This document shows positions 53,438 through 64,000 of a stretch of DNA of 64,000 bases, piece after piece. Source of the stretch: Alphaproteobacteria bacterium (GTDB taxonomy: Bacteria > Pseudomonadota > Alphaproteobacteria > Caulobacterales > Maricaulaceae); assembly GCA_016124675.1 (NCBI GenBank), contig WGNG01000022.1:1-64000 (forward strand), given 5' to 3'. The position numbers and the translations under genes were made by a program. Under the pieces are notes generated by a model, which made no database searches, had not been told where the DNA came from, and saw nothing but the letters and a program-made list of their open reading frames with translations. Position 1 is the stretch's first letter. Every line of letters begins with the position of its first letter.

Positions 53438-54348
53438 GATCTCTCCCCCACGCGCCGGACCTCCCATTCGAGTTCGACGCCGAACTGCGCCTTCACCTCG
53501 GCCCGCACGGTTTCGCCCAGCGTCTCAAGATCGTCCGCCGTCGCCGCGTCCTCATTGATCAGGAAATTGCAGTGCTGCGGCGAGAACATCGCCCCGCCCA
53601 GCCGGCGCCCGCGCCAGCCCGCGGCATCGATGAGCTGCCAGGCCGAACGCCCGCCCGACACCGCCGGGTCCGGGTTCTTGAAGGTGGAGCCGGAGGTCTT
53701 TTCCCGGATCGGCTGGGTGCTCTCGCGCCGGGCGGTGATGGCGTCCATGCGCTGCGTGATGGCGGCGGGATCATCAGCGCGGCCCTCGAACACGGCTTCG
53801 ACGAATATCCACTCATCCGGCGCCGCGCTGTGGCGATACGCATAGCCCAGCTCATCGCGCGGCGCGATGATCCGGCGTCCGCGCCGGTCGAGCGCCACGG
53901 CCTCCACCAGAACATCGCGGGTCTCGGCACTATAACAGCCGGCATTCATGCGCAGCGCGCCGCCGATCGTGCCCGGCACGCCAACGAAAAACTCAAGCCC
54001 GGCGATACCCGCCTTGGCTGCGGCTTTCGCCACTGCCTTGTCCAGCGCCGCCGCCCCGGCCCGCAGGCGCAGGCCGTCGGCCTTGATCTGCCCGAAGGCC
54101 GGAGTGAGCTTCACCGTCACGCCCGGCAATCCGCCATCGCGCACCAGCGTGTTGGACCCGGCGCCCAGCACCTGAACGGGAATGTCGCGCGGCGTCTCGG
54201 CCAGGAAGCGGGCCAGATCGGCCTCGTCGGCGGGCAGGAACAGCACCTGCGCCGGTCCGCCCACGCGCAGCCAGGTGATATCAGCCAGCGGCGCGCCTTC
54301 GATCAGCTTGCCGCGTACGGGCGGGAGGCGGTCAGCGAGCGCCGCCAT
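53434..54348 (-). CDS. murB: UDP-N-acetylenolpyruvoylglucosamine reductase
   Basis: FAD enzyme that makes UDP-MurNAc from the enolpyruvyl ether. The 304-aa type II MurB has '[17 protein letters not shown]', '[22 protein letters not shown]', '[28 protein letters not shown]', '[12 protein letters not shown]' (catalytic Ser), and a C-terminal Glu region '[11 protein letters not shown]'. ATG 54348 shares a base with the murC stop (TGATG). An upstream extension has no support. Confidence 0.95.
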
Positions 54349-55757
54349 CACTTCCCCGCTCCCAGCCGCTCTGGCAAGTCTGCCGCCCAGGCGGTGATGT
54401 CGCCCGCGCCCAGGCACACCACCAGATCGCCGGGCTGGAGGCGGGGCTTGAGGTCGGCGGCGAGCGTTTCGCGGGTCGTGGCCGACGCGTCGCGGTGGGA
54501 ATGGCGCTGCAGGCCGGCGACGAGGCTCTCCTGATCGGCGCCCTCGATGGGCGTCTCCCCGGCCGCGTAGACCGGAGCGACCAGCACACTGTCAGCGTCA
54601 TTGAAGCAGGTGCAGAATTCCTCGAACAGATCGTTCAGGCGCGTGTAGCGGTGCGGCTGGACCACGGCGATCACCCGGCCCTCGCCCACGCGCTGGCGCG
54701 CGGCCTTGAGGACGGCGGCGATCTCCACCGGATGGTGGCCATAATCATCGATCACCGCCACGCCGTCCACTTCGCCCACCAGGGTGAAGCGCCGCTTGAC
54801 GCCGGTGAAGCCCGCCAGCCCGTGGCGCGCCTCATCCTCGCCGGCGCCGAGCGCCTGCACCACCGCCAGCGCCGCAGCCGCGTTGAGCACGTTGTGCTCG
54901 CCCATCATCGGCAGGGCGAGCCCGGCCCAGACCGACGGCTCGGCCCCGCGCGCCTGGAAGCGCAGGTCAAAGCGCGCGCCGGCCTTGTCGCCGGCATGAT
55001 TGACAATGCGCACATCGGCCTGGGGCGAGAATCCGTACGTGATGACGCGCCGGTCCTCGATGCGGGCTGCCAGGGCCTGCACCTCGGGATGGTCCACGCA
55101 CAACACGGCGAAGCCATAGAAGGGCAGGTTCTCGACAAACTGGTGGAAGGCGCCGCGCAGCGCTTCGAAATCGCCGTAATGCTCCATGTGTTCAGGATCG
55201 ATATTGGTGATGATCCCCACCGTGCCGCGCAGTTTCAGGAAGGAGCCGTCGCTCTCGTCAGCCTCCACCACCATCCACTCGCCCGCGCCCATCTTGGCGT
55301 TGGAGCCATAGGCCGAGATGATGCCGCCATTGATCACGGTGGGATCAAACCCGGCCGCATCCATCAGCGCGGCCACCAGCGAGGTGGTGGTCGTCTTGCC
55401 ATGGGTGCCGGCCACCGCGACGCACTGCTTGAGGCGCATCAGCTCGGCGAGCATTTCCGCCCGGCGCACCACCGGAATGCGCCGCGCGCGCGCTTCGGCG
55501 AGCTCGGGATTATTGCGGCGCACCGCGCTCGACACCACCAGCGCGCCGGCGCCCATGACATTGCCGCCGTCATGGCCGATATGGATCACCGCGCCTTTCT
55601 TGCGCAGGCGCTGCACATTCGCGCTGTCGGCAATGTCGGAGCCGGAGACCTGATAGCCCAGATTGAGCATCACCTCGGCGATGCCGCTCATCCCGATCCC
55701 GCCAATGCCGACGAAATGGACCGGCGAGGCGGCGGCGGCGAGATCCTTGGGGGGCAT
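54348..55757 (-). CDS. murC: UDP-N-acetylmuramate--L-alanine ligase
   Basis: First Mur ligase, adds L-Ala to UDP-MurNAc. The 469-aa protein has '[18 protein letters not shown]', the ATP P-loop [10 protein letters not shown], '[11 protein letters not shown]', '[13 protein letters not shown]', '[14 protein letters not shown]', '[12 protein letters not shown]' and '[11 protein letters not shown]'. All catalytic motifs are intact, in contrast to the MurD-like gene in the same cluster. It is 6 bp downstream of murG. Confidence 0.96.
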
Positions 55758-55763
55758 GGGTCG

Positions 55764-56852
55764 CTACTCCGCAGCGCGTTCGATGAGACCGGCCAGCGCC
55801 TCATGCGCATCGGGCCGGCCGGCGGCGCGGGCGGCAGACGCGCGCGCGGCGAGAGCTTCGCCGTCCGCCAGCAGCGATTCAAGGCGCTGTGACAGGGTCT
55901 GCGGCGTGAAGTCAGCTTCGGCAATGGCGTCCGCCGCGCCGGCGCGCACCAGGCCCTGCGCATTGGCGCTCTGGTGATCATCCATGGCGATGGCCAGCGG
56001 CACGAGGAGGGAGGGCCGCCCTATGGCGGCAAGCTCGGCCACGGACGAGGCGCCCGCGCGCGAGATGACCAGATGCGCTGCGGCGTAGCGCGCGCCCATA
56101 TCATCGAAGAAGGGGGACAGCTCGGCGCGCACGCCGGCGGCGTCATAGGCGCTGCGGGCCGCGTCGAGGCTTTCATCGCGGGTCTGCTGCACGACGCTGA
56201 GCCGGGCTCGCAGGGATGCAGGCAGGCGCGCGATCGCGGCGGGCACGGTGTCGGACAGGATGCGCGCACCCAGGCTGCCGCCCAGCACCAGGAGGCGTAT
56301 CTCGCCATCGGCTTGCGGCGGCGCATAGGGTGTGTCACGCGCGGCCAGCACCGCGGCGCGCACCGGATTGCCGGTGACGGCATGGCGCGCCCTGCGCGGC
56401 AGGCGGTCCAGCCGCTCGAAGCCCGAGGCGACGGTGCGGGCGGATCTGGCGAACAGACGATTGACCCGTCCCAGCACGGCATTCTGCTCATGGATCACGA
56501 AGGGCAGGCCGGAGATGCGCGCGGCGGCCAGCAGCGCAAAGGCGGGATAACCGCCAAACCCGGCCACGGCGTCGGGCTCGAACGTCTTCACGATGGCGCG
56601 TGTGGCGCCCAGGCCGGCGGAGAGATCGGCCAGCGCGGCGGCGAGCCGGCGCGGGTCCGACTGGAAGGGGCTGGCGGCGCGAATGACGGTGACGCCTTCG
56701 CCCGGGAAGCCGTCTGTGTGGCGCGCGCCGCGCGCGTCCGTGACAAGGCGCACTCGCCAGCCGCGCGCGACCAGGGTTTCTGCGGTGGCGCGCGCCGGGA
56801 AGATGTGCCCGCCCGTGCCGCCCGCAGCCATGATGAGGCGCTTGCCGGTCAT
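55764..56852 (-). CDS. murG: Lipid II synthase MurG (GlcNAc transferase)
   Basis: Membrane-associated glycosyltransferase that adds GlcNAc to lipid I. The 362-aa GT28 protein has 'IMAAGGTGGHIFPARATAE', 'VAGFGGYPAFALLAAARI', 'FVIHEQNAVLGRVNRLFA', 'VLGGSLGARILSDTVP', 'SRAGASSVAELAAIGRPSLLVPLAIAMDDHQSANAQGLVRAGAA'. Its ATG overlaps the ftsW stop by 4 bp. Confidence 0.96.
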   Translation of the reverse strand: MTGKRLIMAAGGTGGHIFPARATAETLVARGWRVRLVTDARGARHTDGFPGEGVTVIRAASPFQSDPRRLAAALADLSAGLGATRAIVKTFEPDAVAGFGGYPAFALLAAARISGLPFVIHEQNAVLGRVNRLFARSARTVASGFERLDRLPRRARHAVTGNPVRAAVLAARDTPYAPPQADGEIRLLVLGGSLGARILSDTVPAAIARLPASLRARLSVVQQTRDESLDAARSAYDAAGVRAELSPFFDDMGARYAAAHLVISRAGASSVAELAAIGRPSLLVPLAIAMDDHQSANAQGLVRAGAADAIAEADFTPQTLSQRLESLLADGEALAARASAARAAGRPDAHEALAGLIERAAE

Positions 56853-57979
56853 GCCGCAGCGCCCGCAAGGCGCTGGCGCACGGGCTGATAGGCGCCGGGC
56901 CGGTGGCGGGTCAGGGCCAGCATCAGCCCGGCCGAGAAGGCGAGCGCCAGCATGGACGAGCCGCCATAGGACAGGAAGGGCAGCGTCATGCCGGTCGATG
57001 GCGCGAGATCAAGATTGACCGCGATATTGACCAGTGCCTGCAGCGCGAACAGCAGCGCCAGGCCTGCCGTCGCCAGCCTTGCGAACGGATCATTGAGCCC
57101 CATGGCCAGCGTCCAGGCGCGCAGGAAGAGCAGCGCATAGAGCGCGATGATGAGCAGCATGGCGAACGTGCCGAACTCCTCGCCCGCCACGGCGAAGATG
57201 TAGTCGTTATGGGCTTCGGGCAGGACATGCTTGATGCGTCCCTCGCCCGGCCCCACGCCCCACAGCCCGCCGCTGCCGATGGCGTCAAGGGCTATGTCGG
57301 TCTGGTTGCGCGCCCCGCCCCCGCCAGAGAGGAACTCTGCGACGCGGGTGCGGATATAGGGCACGAAGTGAAACGCCGCCGCGGCGCCCGCCGCGATTCC
57401 CGCCCCCAGCCCGAACGTCCAGCGCCAGGACAGGCCGCTGATCCACAGCATGCCGGCGAAGATGAAGGTGATCAGCGCGGTCTGGCCAATGTCCGGCTGC
57501 TGCGTCAGCAACAGCGCCGCAAGCGCATAGATCGCCAGCGCCAGAATGCGCCCCGGCGCCGGGGCGCCGCGGTCCTCCTCGCTGAACAACCAGGCGGTGA
57601 TGACGATGAAGGCCGGCTTGAATATCTCGCTGGGCTGCACGGAGAACCCGGGCAGGTGCAGCCAGCGCGTCGAGCCGTTGATGCTCTGGCCCACCGCCAG
57701 CACCACCACCAGCAGGATCAGGGACCCCACGAGCGCCAGTCCGGACATGCGCCGCACGCCCGTCAGCGAAAACGCGGCGGTCACCATGAGAATGACGACG
57801 CCTGCGGCCATGAACATCACCTGACGGCGCAGGTAGAAGAAGGGATCATCCACGCTCGACACCGCCGGACTGGCGGCGAACGCCAGCATCAGCCCCATGC
57901 CCAGGAGGAACAGGATGATGACCAGCAGGGGCGTGTCCAGCTCACGCAGGACCCGCGAATAGCGCCGCGTCAGGCTCAT
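56849..57979 (-). CDS. ftsW: Septal peptidoglycan glycosyltransferase FtsW
   Basis: SEDS-family polymerase of septal peptidoglycan. The 376-aa protein has about ten membrane helices. Conserved SEDS blocks: 'GFSVQPSEIFKPAFIV', 'LLTQQPDIGQTALI', 'DAIGSGGLWGVGPGEGRIKHVLPEAHNDYIFAVAGEEFG', 'STGMTLPFLSYGGSSMLAL'. The catalytic Asp lies in the long loop before 'GGAR'. ATG 57979 overlaps the stop of the MurD-like gene by 4 bp. Confidence 0.95.
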   Translation of the reverse strand: MSLTRRYSRVLRELDTPLLVIILFLLGMGLMLAFAASPAVSSVDDPFFYLRRQVMFMAAGVVILMVTAAFSLTGVRRMSGLALVGSLILLVVVLAVGQSINGSTRWLHLPGFSVQPSEIFKPAFIVITAWLFSEEDRGAPAPGRILALAIYALAALLLTQQPDIGQTALITFIFAGMLWISGLSWRWTFGLGAGIAAGAAAAFHFVPYIRTRVAEFLSGGGGARNQTDIALDAIGSGGLWGVGPGEGRIKHVLPEAHNDYIFAVAGEEFGTFAMLLIIALYALLFLRAWTLAMGLNDPFARLATAGLALLFALQALVNIAVNLDLAPSTGMTLPFLSYGGSSMLALAFSAGLMLALTRHRPGAYQPVRQRLAGAAA

Positions 57980-59325
57980 GCTGCATCTCCCCGGCGGATG
58001 CGGCCCGTCAGCCGCTCCAGCGCGTCCTTGAAGGTCTGGCTGCGCGCCAGCCTCTCCTCTGGCCCGCACAGGGTTGACGGAGCGTATAGAAGCCGCGCCG
58101 GACCGCCGCAAAGTGCAGCCGCGTGGAGGCCGCGCGCCAGGGCATCATCCAGACTGTCCGTCTGACGGCAGGGAATCCGGGCGCCGAGCCGCCGCGCCGC
58201 ACGCGCATCGCGCCCGCAGAGGATCACGCCGCGCAGGGTTTCGGGCCAGACCTCGGGCAGCGCGCCCGCGTCCACGCCCGGCGCGGCCACCCACCAGACG
58301 GGCGCGGCGCCGGACAGAGCCGCCAGAGCCGCCTGCGGACATTGCGCCCCCGCCCTGTCGATCACCTCGACCGGGCCCAGACGGGCGAGCGGCCTGCCCC
58401 ACCCGGCGGCGCCGGGGAAGGCGGCCAGCGCCGCCTCGACCATGTCGGGTTGGCCGCCCAGGGCGAGCGCCAGCGCCGCAGCGCCCGCTATCCGTGCCGC
58501 CGGCGAGGTCAGCAGGCCGGGCCCGGTTGCGCGCAGCGGGCGGCGCGGCGCGCCGGGCCGGGCATCATGCAGCCGTCCGCCCAGCACATAGACGCCGTCG
58601 CCCAGCGCCATGCGGCCCGAACACGCAATCAGGCGCGCGCGGTCCACCCCGCCCCGGCGCAACGCCGCAAGGCGCGCGGACGCTTCGGGCGCGTCCATGT
58701 CCACAAGGACGGGGCCCGATACGCGCGCCGCCAGGGCTTCCAGATCGCTGGCGCCAATCGGCGCGCCGGCCAGGAGCAGCATTGCGTCCACGGTTATGTC
58801 CGGCGCCGCGGCGCATTCGGCTGCGCTGGCGGCGATGAGGGTGATCGATCCGGCGCGCAGCGGCGGGGCGTCAAACAGGGCGATCCCGGCGCCGCCCCGG
58901 CGCACGTCCAGCCCGCAGCGGGAGAGGCACGCTTCCGCAAGCTCGGCCGCCGCGCCGGCATCATCCCCGCCGAGGATCAGCGCCGCGCGCGCGCCTTTGA
59001 CGCCGCCAAGCGCGCGGCCGAACAAGGCCAGTTCGGTCAGGACCGGCGTGCCGGTGACATGAGCGAGCGCGGCTGGGCCCGTCTCCGGTCCGGCGAGGCG
59101 GCTGACATCGTCGATCACCAGCGCAGACAGATCACCCCAGTCGCGCGAGGTGGGATCCTCGATCACCACGCCGGCGCGCGCGGCCGCATTACGCGCCTTC
59201 ACGTCGTCGTCCCAGCCCGACGCCGCCATGCCGCCAGCGGCCAGCGCCCGCGCCATCGCCCGCCCGCGCGCGCCCAGGCCGAGCACGGCGGCGCGGCCTT
59301 CGGCGCTGGCGCGAACGGGGATCAT
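57976..59325 (-). CDS. murD: Degenerate MurD homologue at the murD position (UDP-MurNAc-Ala D-glutamate ligase-like)
   Basis: 449 aa, intact frame between mraY and ftsW. The start MIPVRASAEGRAAVLGLGAR and 'AVLGLGARGRAMARALAAGG' match the MurD N-terminal domain. The Mur ligase core is eroded: where TGTNGKST is expected, residues 117-124 read I-L-G-G-D-D-A-G (P-loop Lys is Ala123); the NDSKATN motif is 'VIDRAGAQ' (Lys is Ala325); the HNxxN motif, 'PDHLDRH' and 'SSYQL' are absent. The C-terminal domain is recognisable ('LLYAPSTLCGPEERLARSQTFKDALERL'). It probably lacks ligase activity. Codon use and operon overlap (4 bp with ftsW) look native, which argues for a retained, non-catalytic role. It could also be a much diverged active enzyme. 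Confidence 0.75.
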   Translation of the reverse strand: MIPVRASAEGRAAVLGLGARGRAMARALAAGGMAASGWDDDVKARNAAARAGVVIEDPTSRDWGDLSALVIDDVSRLAGPETGPAALAHVTGTPVLTELALFGRALGGVKGARAALILGGDDAGAAAELAEACLSRCGLDVRRGGAGIALFDAPPLRAGSITLIAASAAECAAAPDITVDAMLLLAGAPIGASDLEALAARVSGPVLVDMDAPEASARLAALRRGGVDRARLIACSGRMALGDGVYVLGGRLHDARPGAPRRPLRATGPGLLTSPAARIAGAAALALALGGQPDMVEAALAAFPGAAGWGRPLARLGPVEVIDRAGAQCPQAALAALSGAAPVWWVAAPGVDAGALPEVWPETLRGVILCGRDARAARRLGARIPCRQTDSLDDALARGLHAAALCGGPARLLYAPSTLCGPEERLARSQTFKDALERLTGRIRRGDAA

Positions 59326-59338
59326 GGCGCCTCCTTGG

Positions 59339-60439
59339 CTAGCGCAGCTTCAGCGTGGACAGACCAATCAGGGCGAGGACGAAGGCGATGATCCAGAACC
59401 GCACCACGATGGTCGGCTCGGCCCAGCCCAGCTTCTCGAAATGGTGGTGGATGGGGGCCATGCGGAACACCCGCTTGCCGGTCAGCTTGAAGCTGGCCAC
59501 CTGGACCATCACCGAGACGGCCTCCAGCACGAACAGCCCGCCAATGATGACCAGCACGATCTCGTGCTTGACCGCCACGGCGATGGCGCCGATGGCGCCG
59601 CCCAGAGACAGCGAACCGGTATCGCCCATGAACACCATGGCCGGGGGCGCATTGTACCAGAGAAAGCCGAGCCCGGCCCCGATCATCGCGCCGCAGATCA
59701 CGGCGAGCTCGCCCGTGCCGGGGGTGAAGTTCAAGAACAGATAGTTGGAATAGACCGCCGAGCCGACCACGTAGGCGATGATGCCGAACGCGCCGGCCGC
59801 GATCATCACCGGCACGATGGCCAGCCCGTCGAGACCGTCCGTCAGGTTGACCGCGTTGGAGGCGCCGACAATCACCAGCACGCCGAAAACAAAGAACACC
59901 ATACCCAGCGGGATCAGCACGTCCTTGAAGAAGGGCACGGCGACAGAGGTGGCGAAATCATCCGGCGTGTTGGGCGCGCCATCGAGCAGCTGCACCATCC
60001 AGATCACCGCCACCAGCGCCACGGCGCCCTGCAGCACAAGCTTGCCCCTGGCGGACAGGCCGTGATGGGAGCGGCGCGTGACCTTGCGCCAGTCATCAAA
60101 GAAGCCGATCGCGCCATAGCCGGCGGTGACGAACATCACCACCCACAGATACTGGTTGGACAGATCGCCCCAGAGCAGGGTGCCGGTCAGAAGCCCGGTC
60201 AGGATGATGAAACCGCCCATGGTCGGCGTGCCGGCCTTGGTCAACACATGGCTTTCCGGCCCGTCATCTCGGATCGGCTGGGAGCCCTGACGCTTCAGCC
60301 AGCCGATGAAGGGCATGCCCACCACCAGCGCCACCACAAACGCCGTCATCAGCGCCGCGCCGGTGCGAAACGTGAGATAGTTGAGAACATTGAAAAGGGC
60401 GAACTGCTCGGCGAACGGGGACAGCAACAGGTACAGCAT
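59339..60439 (-). CDS. mraY: Phospho-MurNAc-pentapeptide translocase
   Basis: Makes lipid I on undecaprenyl phosphate. The 366-aa integral membrane protein has about ten helices and the MraY motifs '[11 protein letters not shown]', 'GFFDDWRKV' (DD), '[17 protein letters not shown]' (NxxxLTDGLDG), '[16 protein letters not shown]' and '[14 protein letters not shown]'. ATG 60439 lies 6 bp after the murF stop. Confidence 0.97.
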
Positions 60440-60445
60440 GGCGGA

Positions 60446-61861
60446 TCAGGCCTGTGTTGGGGCGCCGGCGTGCGCGGATTTGAGGGCGGCGGCGATCCTG
60501 TGAACGCCGGAGGCATTGGACCCCTTGATGAGCACAAGATCACCGTCGCGCGCCAGTGCGTGCAGCTGTTGTGCGCCAGCATTCCAGTCAACGGCGTGAA
60601 CGGCCTGCAATCCCGGCGGCAGTGCTTCCAGCAAGGCATGCATGCCGCGGCCCACGCCGATCACCGCCTCGACGCCGGCGTCGGCCAGCGGGCCGGCGAG
60701 GGCGGCGTGCAGGGCCGCGCTGTCCGGCCCCAGCTCCAGCATTTCGCCCAGCACCGCGATGCGCCGGGCGCCGCGCGGCGGGGTGCGGGCCGAAAGGCTT
60801 GCAAACGCGGCGCGCATCGAGGCCGGATTGGCGTTGTAACTGTCGTCGATCACGCTCAGGGCGCGCCCGTCTGGCAGATGCACGTCGAAGCGCGCGCCGC
60901 GGCCTGCCTGGGGCGCCAGCGTCTCCAGCACGTCCAGCGCCATTTGCGGATCAATGCCGGCGGCGAAGGCCGCCGCCGCAGCGCCGGCCGCATTCACCGC
61001 CTGGTGCGCGCCGGGCAGGTTGAGGCGGAAGGCCATGACCTTGCCCGCGACGTCCATCTCGCCCGATCCGCCCTCGCCATCAGCGTCCGGCGCATAGCTC
61101 AGCACGCGCACCGCTGCGCCGCGCGCCAGACCGAAATCGAACAGGAAGGCGGCGCGTGAGGCGTTCACCGCCAGCCTCAGGCGCGGCGCCAGCGCATCAT
61201 CGGCAGGGATCACCGCGACACCATCCATTTCAAGCCCTGAGAAAATCTCCGCCTTGGCGTCGGCGATGGCTTCAAGCGAGCCGAGATTCTCCAGATGCGC
61301 CGGCGCGATCCTGGTGATCAGCGCCACGTGCGGGCGGACCTGGGCGGTGAGCGCGGCGATCTCGCCGGCATGGTTCATGCCCATCTCGAACACCGCCGCG
61401 CGCGCCGCCTGCGGCAGGCGCGCCAGGGTGAGCGGCACGCCCCAGTGATTGTTGTAACTGGCCACGCTCCAGTGCGCCGGACCCGCTGCGCGCAGAACGG
61501 CCGCAATGGCTTCCTTCACGCTGGTCTTGCCCACCGAGCCGGTGACCCCGATGCGCCGGGCGCCCGAACGCAGACGTGCGCCCTGGCCCAGCGCGCGCAG
61601 CGCCTCCAGCGTATCGCCCACGACGAGGCGCGGGCCATCGCAGCTGTCAGCGCGCGAGATCAGAACGGCGCTGGCGCCCTTGGCCAGCGCGGCCTGCGCG
61701 AACTCGTGGCCGTCGCGTGCATCCTTCAAGGCGACAAACAGATCGCCCGGCTGCAGCGTGCGGGTGTCGATGGACACGCCCGTGGCGGCCCAGCCCTCCC
61801 CCATCAGTCGCCCGCCCGTGACGAGCGCAGCGTCGGCGGCGGTCCACAGCGGCGCGGTCAT
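60446..61861 (-). CDS. murF: UDP-MurNAc-tripeptide--D-Ala-D-Ala ligase
   Basis: Adds D-Ala-D-Ala, the last cytoplasmic stem step. The 471-aa Mur ligase has 'DTRTLQPGDLFVALKDARDGHEF', P-loop GVTGSVGKTSVKEAI, 'SYNNHWGVPLTLA', 'FEMGMNHAGEIAALT', 'IDDSYNANPASMRAAF' and 'VLGEMLELG'. All ATP and substrate motifs are complete. ATG 61861 overlaps the murE stop by 4 bp. Confidence 0.96.
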   Translation of the reverse strand: MTAPLWTAADAALVTGGRLMGEGWAATGVSIDTRTLQPGDLFVALKDARDGHEFAQAALAKGASAVLISRADSCDGPRLVVGDTLEALRALGQGARLRSGARRIGVTGSVGKTSVKEAIAAVLRAAGPAHWSVASYNNHWGVPLTLARLPQAARAAVFEMGMNHAGEIAALTAQVRPHVALITRIAPAHLENLGSLEAIADAKAEIFSGLEMDGVAVIPADDALAPRLRLAVNASRAAFLFDFGLARGAAVRVLSYAPDADGEGGSGEMDVAGKVMAFRLNLPGAHQAVNAAGAAAAAFAAGIDPQMALDVLETLAPQAGRGARFDVHLPDGRALSVIDDSYNANPASMRAAFASLSARTPPRGARRIAVLGEMLELGPDSAALHAALAGPLADAGVEAVIGVGRGMHALLEALPPGLQAVHAVDWNAGAQQLHALARDGDLVLIKGSNASGVHRIAAALKSAHAGAPTQA

Positions 61862-63315
61862 GAGGCGGTCTCCAGCTCTTGCAGCAGGCGCGTGACGATG
61901 GCGAGCTCGTCAAACGGAATGATGCGGTCGCCCACGATCTGCCCGGTCTCGTGGCCCTTGCCGGCGATCAGCAGCGTGTCGCCCGCCTCCAGCATGGCGA
62001 TGCCGGCGCGAATCGCGCTTTCGCGGTCGGCGATCTCCTGCGCGTGCGGGCAGGCCGACAGGATCGCGGCGCGGATGGCGCGCGGGTCCTCGCTGCGCGG
62101 ATTGTCGTCGGTGACGATGCAGGCGTCGGCCAGGCGCGCGGCCACCGCGCCCATCCTGGCGCGCTTGGTGGGATCGCGGTCGCCGCCCGCGCCGAACACC
62201 AGAATGACCCGCCCGCGCGTATGCGGCCGCGCGGCGCGCAACAGCTTGTCCAGCCCGTCGGGCGTATGGGCGTAATCGAGCAGGATCGGCGCGCCCTCGC
62301 GCGTGGCGCCCGCCTGCTGCAGGCGCCCGGCGACGCCGGTGAGATGCTCCAGCGCGCCAAACGCGGCGTCAGCCTCGACGCCTGAGGCGATCGCCATCAC
62401 CGCCGCGCCCAGCGCGTTGGCCGTCTGGAACTCGCCGATCAGCGGCAGGTCGATCAGGCGCTCCCCGCCCATCCAGCTGAATCGCACCAGCTGGCTGGCC
62501 GCGCGCGGCGTGATCTCGCGCACGGCCAGATCGCGCCCGCGCCAGCCCAGCGTCATCACCTCAAGCCCCGCCGCCAGCGCGGTCTGCTCCACGCGGGCGG
62601 ACCAGTCGGAATCCATGTTGATCACCACGCGCCCGCCTGACGGCGTGAGCGCGCTGAACAGGCGCATTTTGGATGCGAAGTAATCTTCAAAGTCCGGGTG
62701 GTAATCGAGATGGTCCTGGGTGAGGTTGGTGAACGCGCTCACCGCCACGTGCACGCCGTCCATGCGGCGCTGTTTGAGCCCGTGCGAGGACGCTTCCATC
62801 GCCAGATGCGTCACGCCCTCGCCTGCCAGCGCGTCGAGCGCGGCGTGCAGGGCGATGGCGTCGGGCGTGGTGTAGCCGACCTCCGTGCGTCCGGCGGCGC
62901 GGGTCACCCCCAGCGTGCCGAGCGCTGCGGCGCTGATGCCCGCCGACGCCCAGATCTGGCGCAGGAATTCCACGGTTGAGCTTTTGCCATTGGTGCCGGT
63001 GACGGCGGCGATGTGCCCAGGCTGGCGCGGATAGAAGCGCGCAGCGATGGCCGCCAGCGCGCTGGACGGGTCATCGGCTTCGATCACCGGAACCGGCGCA
63101 GTCGTCCCGCGCGGGGCGAGCACGCAGGCGGCGCCCTTCTCCACGGCGGCCGCAATGAAGGCCCGGCCGTCCACGCGCACGCCGGGCAGGGCAGCGAACA
63201 GATCGCCGGGCTTGACCTTGCGGCTGTCCAGCGCCAGGCCGCCGACAATCAGCCCCTCGGCGCCCTGGGGCGCCCGCAGACCCTCGGGCAGGAGATCGCA
63301 GAGGGGCCGGCTCAT
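61858..63315 (-). CDS. murE: UDP-MurNAc-tripeptide synthetase, meso-diaminopimelate-adding
   Basis: Adds the third stem residue. The 485-aa protein has 'LALDSRKVKPGDLFAALPG', P-loop TGTNGKSSTVEF, 'TTPDAIALHAALDALAGEGVTHLAMEASSHGLKQRR', 'FTNLTQDHLDYH', 'YAHTPDGLDKLLRA' and 'FGAGGDRDPTKRARMGAVAARLADACIVTDDNPRSEDP'. The DNPR motif marks the mesoDAP-adding type. Starts at ATG 63315, overlapping the ftsI stop by 4 bp. Confidence 0.96.
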   Translation of the reverse strand: MSRPLCDLLPEGLRAPQGAEGLIVGGLALDSRKVKPGDLFAALPGVRVDGRAFIAAAVEKGAACVLAPRGTTAPVPVIEADDPSSALAAIAARFYPRQPGHIAAVTGTNGKSSTVEFLRQIWASAGISAAALGTLGVTRAAGRTEVGYTTPDAIALHAALDALAGEGVTHLAMEASSHGLKQRRMDGVHVAVSAFTNLTQDHLDYHPDFEDYFASKMRLFSALTPSGGRVVINMDSDWSARVEQTALAAGLEVMTLGWRGRDLAVREITPRAASQLVRFSWMGGERLIDLPLIGEFQTANALGAAVMAIASGVEADAAFGALEHLTGVAGRLQQAGATREGAPILLDYAHTPDGLDKLLRAARPHTRGRVILVFGAGGDRDPTKRARMGAVAARLADACIVTDDNPRSEDPRAIRAAILSACPHAQEIADRESAIRAGIAMLEAGDTLLIAGKGHETGQIVGDRIIPFDELAIVTRLLQELETAS

Positions 63316-64000
63316 GGCTGCGGCTCCGCGGCCGTGAGACGCACCGGCTCTTCGGACGGCAGCACCGCGCGCGCGCGCGGCGCAAACAGGGCGGCGACCT
63401 GTTCGGCGCGGGCGGACGGATCGGCGTCGCGGCGGCGCAGCTCCAGAACGCCCGCCAGCTGGCGCAGGATATCCCCGGCAGCCGGCGCGGCATTCCAACC
63501 CGCCGTAGCGAAACCGTGCGTCTCGCGGCTGGGGCGCGGGCGGTCGAACGTCACGGTCAGCACGTATTGCGGGTCGTCAAAGGGGAACACCGCCACGAAT
63601 GTCGTCACCCGGTGATCGCGGTCATAACCGCCCGGTCCCGCCTGCAGGGCCGTGCCCGTCTTGCCCGCCACGGCGAGGCCTTCCACGTCCGGGCCGCCGG
63701 CCTGCGAGCGCGCCACGGTCTCGCGCATGACCGCCAGAACCTGGGCGGCGGTGCGCGCGCTCATCACCGGATCGCCGGCGATGATTTCGCCTGGCGCCAC
63801 CGGGCGAAGGGTCGGGGGCACATAGACCCCGCCATTGGCGAGCGCCGCATAGGCGGCGGTCAGCGACAGCGGCGTCACCGCCAGCCCGTGGCCGAATGCG
63901 GCGGTCATGGTTTCGGTGGGGCCCCAGTTGCGCGGCATGCGCGGATGCGCGCTTTCCGACAATTCCAGCGGCGGGCGCTCATGCAGGCGCAGCGCCTCGT
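63312..64000 (-). CDS. ftsI: Penicillin-binding protein 3 (FtsI), C-terminal part
   Basis: Septal peptidoglycan transpeptidase; 229 C-terminal codons are in the window and the gene continues past its end. The visible part has 'AAFGHGLAVTPLSLTAAYAALANGGVYVPPTL' and the third active-site motif VAGKTGTALQ (K-T-G). The nucleophile Ser and SxN motifs lie beyond the window. It is the upstream neighbour of murE with a 4-bp overlap, as in dcw clusters. Confidence 0.9.
   Translation of the reverse strand, partial: EALRLHERPPLELSESAHPRMPRNWGPTETMTAAFGHGLAVTPLSLTAAYAALANGGVYVPPTLRPVAPGEIIAGDPVMSARTAAQVLAVMRETVARSQAGGPDVEGLAVAGKTGTALQAGPGGYDRDHRVTTFVAVFPFDDPQYVLTVTFDRPRPSRETHGFATAGWNAAPAAGDILRQLAGVLELRRRDADPSARAEQVAALFAPRARAVLPSEEPVRLTAAEPQP

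Follow-up and report, generated by a model that had tools for sequence, protein, structure and literature searches.

The murD Slot of the dcw Cluster

The window analyzed is a stretch of 64,000 nucleotides from an alphaproteobacterium of the family Maricaulaceae (assembly GCA_016124675.1, contig WGNG01000022.1, positions 1 to 64,000; genome G000 in this study). It contains a division and cell wall (dcw) cluster in the order murE-murF-mraY-[pseudoenzyme gene]-ftsW-murG-murC (Table 1). As confirmed by sequence comparison, the gene between mraY and ftsW encodes a full-length MurD homolog (P0001) that is stripped of every Mur-ligase motif tested and is thus referred to as a MurD-derived pseudoenzyme. 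An earlier note on this DNA had described the gene as a frame of 449 codons that overlaps ftsW by ATGA, and its coordinates, strand and length were correct.

The note had also claimed that the protein aligns with MurD at both ends; the homology in fact covers the full length. Alignment by hhalign of a profile of the 11 pseudoenzymes of the genus with 12 canonical slot MurDs gave a probability of 100% and an E-value of 1.4e-48 over 437 columns and was collinear throughout. Thus, no frameshift pair hides a MurD core. Such a pair, raised in the note as an objection to its own reading, was not borne out, and a frameshift or assembly artefact is rejected in view of the single collinear frame common to 11 genomes. 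A search of named sequences with the window protein alone gave no match. A Pfam scan found no Mur domain in P0001, whereas MurC, MurE and MurF of the window, correctly called intact before, each matched all three; nor was a Pfam Mur domain found in any of the 11 pseudoenzymes of the genus at E ≤ 0.01. Against TIGR01087 (murD), P0001 scored 23 bits, below the curated cut-off of 211.95. The same model was matched at E ≤ 0.01 by 9 of the 11 pseudoenzymes (best E 5e-08).

Six motifs were compared by alignment columns. Each of the 40 canonical slot MurDs had the ATP-binding loop GxxGK[ST], SSYQ, DHxxRH, the carbamylated-Lys position, HNxxN and NDSKATN, and none of these six was seen in any of the 11 pseudoenzymes of the genus, so that the claimed loss of the P-loop, the NDSKATN Lys, HNxxN, DHLDRH and SSYQL extends to the whole set. 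The motif roles and the E. coli numbering are in part general background on MurD. The columns were placed by alignment to slot MurDs, with no E. coli sequence among them. Some of the roles follow the available text of PMC4816537. At the level of single residues, the P-loop Lys column of the window protein is Ala123, as the note had it, with one aligner and Gly124 with another; at the Lys of NDSKATN, the column holds Gly326 rather than Ala325. The protein contains just three Lys residues. Of 92 columns that are near-invariant across the 40 canonical MurDs, it retains 33 (9 of 16 in the N-terminal, 12 of 42 in the central and 12 of 34 in the C-terminal domain), compared with 55 for the MurD2-like protein of the same genome. 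A protein that has lost all of these motifs, the ATP loop and the carbamylated Lys among them, is very unlikely to act as a ligase.

The 11 pseudoenzymes are predicted to descend from the canonical MurD of the slot. Each of them matched canonical slot MurDs, with best E-values of 6e-34 or lower (2e-34 to 6e-47), whereas the 18 MurD2-like proteins gave no match to any of them at E ≤ 10; origin from a MurD2 copy is rejected on this ground. The converse possibility, that MurD2 is the relocated original murD, is also rejected, given that the MurD2-like clade (ultrafast bootstrap support, UFBoot, 100) is shared with other genomes containing MurL.

Table 1. Features of the pseudoenzyme locus and the unlinked putative replacement genes.
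Feature	Position	Strand	Remarks
In-slot MurD-derived pseudoenzyme gene (P0001)	57976..59325	-	449 amino acid residues, ATG start; full-length MurD homolog, motifs lost
AAGGAGG Shine-Dalgarno of pseudoenzyme gene	59330..59336	-	
ATGA stop/start overlap, pseudoenzyme gene with ftsW	57976..57979	-	
mraY, upstream neighbor	59339..60439	-	match in 61/61 genomes
ftsW, downstream neighbor	56849..57979	-	376 amino acid residues counted from ATGA start
murF, intact Mur ligase	60446..61861	-	all three Mur ligase Pfam domains
murE, intact Mur ligase	61858..63318	-	all three Mur ligase Pfam domains; start is the analyst's choice
murC, intact Mur ligase	54348..55757	-	all three Mur ligase Pfam domains
murG	55764..56852	-	named from place and sequence, no family-library scan; served as tblastn query
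MurD2-type gene, unlinked	G000:C23:43160-44515		TGTKGKS; TIGR01087 258 bits, above cut-off 211.95
MurL-type gene	G000:C20:102023-103378		match to NF041275

Pseudoenzyme Genes in the Genus

The dcw slot was taken from 60 of 61 relatives, G033 being left out. In 40 of them the slot held a canonical MurD with every motif. Among the 15 genomes of the genus, 11 possess a motif-less open reading frame (ORF) of 425–453 codons, a range that uses the G002 start shifted to the common position. The other four (G003, G006, G007, and G014) have no gene there, the ftsW start lying 9–53 bases past the mraY stop. The loss, for which the earlier note had proposed a check of clade-wide spread, is thus not uniform in the genus. 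In a tree of MraY and FtsW, in which G003 is represented by a MraY fragment only, the four empty-slot genomes and the eleven retaining genomes formed separate clades (UFBoot 100 and 95, respectively). The pseudoenzymes of the ten relatives were 34–76% identical to the window protein. Named relatives include G013 (JAIUMW010000117.1) and G005 (JAFIEB010000013.1), which are metagenome-assembled genomes of Oceanicaulis sp., and G008 (NZ_VWOJ01000001.1), which is Alkalicaulis satelles G-192; both Oceanicaulis and Alkalicaulis belong to Maricaulaceae in the NCBI taxonomy.

The operon position of the gene is the same in all 11 genomes that bear it, and the ATGA overlap with ftsW is kept in all of them. 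A Shine-Dalgarno sequence of AGGAG or longer precedes the gene in 9 of the 11, with GGAG only in G005 and GAGG only in G008.

Selection on the Pseudoenzyme Gene

The earlier note had argued from the open frame that the gene is maintained. Taken alone, an open frame of 449 codons is weak proof, because the DNA is rich in guanine and cytosine and the plus strand is also open across the gene, with an ORF of 422 amino acid residues at 58123-59391. Maintenance is, however, backed by the ratio of nonsynonymous to synonymous substitution rates (dN/dS). In 11 pairs the dN/dS of the pseudoenzyme gene ranged from 0.14 to 0.59, the pair at 0.14 being near-saturated at synonymous sites. The values for four bootstrapped pairs were 0.24, 0.28, 0.28, and 0.46, with 95% limits within 0.18–0.59 and upper limits of 0.32–0.59. 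Neutral simulation (9 settings of 60 pairs each) gave no dN/dS below 0.60, a mean of 5–17 stops per pair and only 1 stop-free pair in 540. Simulation that rejected stops only (6 settings of 200 pairs, 1200 in total) gave dN/dS of 0.61–1.44. Moreover, the dN/dS of intact MurD pairs (n = 8) was 0.03–0.42 and overlapped that of the pseudoenzymes. Values of 0.24–0.46 against at least 0.60 under neutrality argue against decay or a mere spacer, and amino-acid constraint argues for a protein with a job. The pseudoenzyme is likely maintained, as its dN/dS is below the neutral expectation and each of the 11 retaining genomes has a single unbroken frame across the slot. An antisense gene is an unlikely source of the apparent constraint: of the 33 antisense frames examined in the 11 genes, 32 contain stops, and the single open one is in G009.

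Among the 48 residues invariant in all eleven proteins, 22 are in positions 1–106, 11 in 107–303 and 15 in 304–449. Those of the N-terminal Rossmann domain include L17, G21, W38, D39, R61, D62, and W63. When seven pairs were compared by domain, the C-terminal part was the least constrained in six and tied in one.

A Putative Replacement Route for the MurD Step

Of the five Mur-ligase middle domains found in the genome, four belong to MurC, MurE, MurF and FolC and the fifth to a MurD-like protein, encoded away from the cluster, that carries TGTKGKS. The earlier note had proposed that another enzyme takes over the D-glutamate (D-Glu) step and that the genome be searched for a second murD, murI and MurL. 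That search returned the TGTKGKS gene and a MurL-type gene, both unlinked to the cluster, and no murI match. The genome had no match to TIGR00067 (MurI) or PF01177 and none to TIGR01121 above 143 bits (cut-off 277). These results support a transfer of the MurD step to the putative MurD2- and MurL-type genes of this genome.

The MurD2-type protein keeps GTKGKST, ELSSYQC, HNALN and the carbamylated-Lys position. It has EHIPWH at DHxxRH and DDSLATT at NDSKATN, with Glu at the column equated with E. coli D182 and Arg at that of K348. Across 18 MurD2-like proteins, the K348-equated column was Arg in all 18, and the D182-equated column was Glu in nine and Asp in nine; both columns were equated by motif, with no E. 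coli or Xanthomonas oryzae sequence aligned. In X. oryzae MurD2, these two sites decide the use of L-glutamate (L-Glu) and the K348 site is Arg, according to the available text of PMC8788868. The MurD2-type gene thus fits a putative L-Glu-adding variant, the type that the earlier note had named. The MurL-type gene matched NF041275 at E 7.2e-75 over profile positions 10–442 of 447, with 252 bits against a curated cut-off of 700 bits.

MurL was found in 15 of 15 genomes of the genus, a MurD2-like gene in 14 and TIGR00067 in none; the MurD2 and MurL activities in the genus are predicted ones. Of the other 14 members, only G006 had a PF01177 match, a marginal one of 16 bits. The MurD2 and MurL genes adjoin in 8 of 14 genomes (G001, G002, G004, G006, G007, G009, G010, and G014). 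They are apart or on separate contigs in the remaining six (G000, G005, G008, G011, G012, and G013), which form one clade in the MraY and FtsW tree.

TIGR00067 was matched in 29 of the 61 genomes, whereas the 19 genomes that have MurL gave no match to it. The TIGR01121 cut-off was reached in 0 of 61. Matches above 185 bits, a sub-cut-off line set post hoc at a visible score gap, occurred in 11 of the 13 genomes that have neither MurI nor MurL (G019, G020, G022, G026, G027, G028, G035, G036, G040, G044, and G052). The 19 MurL genomes gave no such match, nor did the other two of the 13, G016 (90% complete) and G029 (89% complete). These matches suggest a D-amino-acid aminotransferase as a possible third source of D-Glu in the order.

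Distribution Beyond the Genus

In a family survey of 137 genomes, MurL was found in 16, which were the 15 of the genus and G023. In a class sample, NF041275 was matched in 17 of 385 genomes. Of the 16 besides G000, 15 had ftsW after mraY with no murD between. The remaining one, G145, has a canonical murD and a partial MurL-like match (G145:C3:135838-136326, 103 bits, profile 223-392), which may represent another protein with one domain in common. A MurD-family match above the TIGR01087 cut-off was found in 20 of 20 genomes, comprising the 16 class-sample MurL genomes, G023 and the three genomes of a second lineage.

The second lineage consists of G048, G056, and G060, which make up a genus outside the family but within the order and have MurL and MurD2 and no TIGR00067 match; G048 has a PF01177 match of 69.5 bits, which is not to a TIGR00067 protein. 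Their slot proteins are 438–460 amino acid residues long. The GxxGK loop is kept in all three, and SSYQ, DHxxRH, HNxxN and NDSKATN are lost in all three. Because their tree sisters G040, G044, and G052 have an intact slot MurD, the decay in this lineage represents an independent second degeneration.

G023 has an intact slot MurD with all six motifs as well as MurD2 and MurL (L114, G023:C1:140600-146244; L071, G023:C3:1-14000). TIGR00067 has no match in this genome, and TIGR01121 none above 132 bits. It looks like an intermediate stage of pathway replacement. In G024, the slot murD lies in two open pieces (L127, G024:C78:13300-19012), the first half keeps its motifs, and a murI match is present; the split may be a sequencing error or a real break.

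Discussion

Taken as a whole, the results are best explained by a maintained, MurD-derived pseudoenzyme that would serve as a non-catalytic assembly partner, an explanation that we hold with moderate confidence. In one clade of the genus, the gene is missing from the slot. In the clade to which this genome belongs, the protein has lost its motifs for ATP, the carbamylated Lys and the substrate, while full length, ribosome-binding site and ATGA coupling were kept. Purifying selection persists on the protein, weakest in the C-terminal domain, with the invariant residues clustered in the N-terminal Rossmann domain. The pseudoenzyme would retain the old contacts of MurD with MurG, MraY, MurE/MurF and perhaps FtsW, membrane-side contacts that the newcomer MurD2 would never have had. 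In PMC6420597, binding of MurD by MurG is reported for Thermotoga maritima, as is an association of Mur ligases with MraY, MurG and MreB. These contacts, together with the N-terminal clustering of invariant residues, make a structural role the most likely one. The N-terminal domain of Mur ligases binds the uridine diphosphate (UDP) precursor, according to PMC4816537; binding of the precursor by the pseudoenzyme is doubtful, since the SPG stretch of this domain is replaced. Of the two options in the earlier note, the data support takeover of the step by another enzyme; they also favor the second, a scaffold or regulator of the cytoplasmic Mur steps, in so far as the protein is maintained. Taken alone, the scaffold role is a tentative proposal, to which we give slightly less than even credence.

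Several observations weigh against this explanation. Four of the 15 genomes of the genus and 15 of 16 other MurL-match genomes have no gene in the slot, so any function of the protein is dispensable on an evolutionary scale. The partner and the expression of the gene are both putative. The dN of the pseudoenzyme gene was 3.8–9.2 times that of mraY, 1.8–5.2 times that of ftsW and 1.4–3.0 times that of murD2 (11 pairs), and the dN/dS of the pairs G009-G010 (0.59), G000-G008 (0.51), and G005-G008 (0.46) approached the lower edge of the neutral simulations. The N-terminal domain was clearly the most constrained in only three of seven pairs, being level with the middle domain in two and slightly behind it in two. 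A tree of slot and MurD2-like proteins placed five pseudoenzymes of the genus beside the MurD2-like clade (UFBoot 70), outside the canonical slot MurDs. We read this placement as long-branch attraction, because the branches are long and matches were to canonical slot MurDs only. Finally, the fold prediction proposed in the earlier note gave poor AlphaFold models, with mean predicted local distance difference test (pLDDT) scores of 58 (4 sequences) and 52 (5 sequences), so the case for fold retention rests mainly on profiles. The first model, built from pseudoenzyme sequences only, was used for Foldseek ranks and not for pocket analysis because of its low confidence. In favor of the explanation, all 42 matches at E ≤ 0.001 were Mur-ligase-family chains, with MurD ranked first, although the template modeling (TM) scores were only 0.23–0.31.

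Among the alternatives, a new and unrelated biochemical function, as a neofunctionalized Rossmann-type protein or a cell-wall precursor sensor, would agree with purifying selection on the gene and with conserved N-terminal Rossmann residues beside a lost central ATP site. Some members also match nicotinamide adenine dinucleotide (NAD)-binding families weakly. However, canonical MurDs give the same matches (PF02826 in 12 of 12), so these are no sign of a new ligand and leave NAD-binding neofunctionalization on that ground unsupported. The operon place, the same in all 11, also speaks against a new function, which we regard as unlikely. Less probable still is a direct regulator or stabilizer of the replacement pathway, for instance one that forms hetero-oligomers with MurD2 or MurL. 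Although motif-less slot proteins occur, among 60 slots, only in genomes with both MurD2 and MurL, three complete sister-clade genomes and 15 other empty-slot genomes have both genes and no pseudoenzyme, and no such partner is mentioned in the available text of the Xanthomonas review (PMC8788868).

The remaining alternatives deny the protein a role or its loss of activity. If the frame were open only to let ribosomes reach the ATGA-coupled ftsW start, with the amino acids irrelevant, the overlap and the single frame in 11 of 11 would be accounted for. The dN/dS of 0.61–1.44 in the stop-forbidding simulation does not agree with the observed 0.24–0.46, and four near relatives do without any bridge between mraY and ftsW, which makes such a translational bridge very improbable. 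Slow decay of a functionless relic on its way to deletion would fit the empty slot of the sister clade and of most other surveyed MurL genomes, as well as a rate of evolution above that of the neighbor genes. It is slightly less credible again, since the ten diverged relatives keep an uninterrupted frame where neutral simulation predicts 5–17 stops per pair, most retain the Shine-Dalgarno sequence, and the dN/dS overlaps that of intact MurD pairs. A fast-evolving yet active MurD, for which full-length homology and conserved place could be cited, has almost no probability in our judgment: 0 of 6 motifs was found in any of the 11, an apparently complete alternative route is present, and no D-Glu source was recognized.

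The proposed assembly partner resembles known systems in part. Similar to canonical MurD, it occupies the mraY-ftsW slot, has a similar length and shows collinear homology; different from it, it lacks all six motifs and any Pfam Mur domain in 11 members. The MurD2/MurL pathway itself has already been published, and the MurD2- and MurL-type genes and the lack of a murI match found here are similar to that of X. oryzae (XOO_1320/XOO_1319). The available text of PMC8788868, however, names Devosia, Pelagibacterium and Parvularcula as alphaproteobacteria with the pathway and not Maricaulaceae, and contains no mention of a retained MurD pseudoenzyme. No description of one was found among the matches listed in the open-licence literature, a scope outside which most subscription journals fall. 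MurT of the lipid II amidotransferase MurT/GatD, a Mur-ligase homolog, also has the Mur-ligase fold in another role, and MurT/GatD was among the Foldseek matches. MurT keeps its ATP site. The pseudoenzyme, by contrast, has no P-loop, and an entry of MurT bound to the ATP analog AMPPNP was among the same matches.

The Mur ligases, essential targets for antibiotics, have been suspected to act in membrane-linked complexes. Since cells do not survive without the catalysis, a structural role of these enzymes is hard to tell apart from the catalytic one. In this genus, evolution seems to have split the two: catalysis would have passed to MurD2/MurL, and one clade kept a MurD without its active site, whereas the sister clade lost the protein. 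It is possible, though we would not yet favor it, that the ligase, once displaced, was retained on two independent occasions as a non-catalytic structural subunit of the cell-wall precursor machinery and that MurD has an assembly or docking job independent of catalysis. If so, this job would have been exposed because catalysis shifted to another protein. By sequence, the MurD2/MurL route extends to Maricaulaceae and, within their order, to a genus of a second family, and these bacteria would provide a natural system for asking whether MurD has a non-catalytic function.

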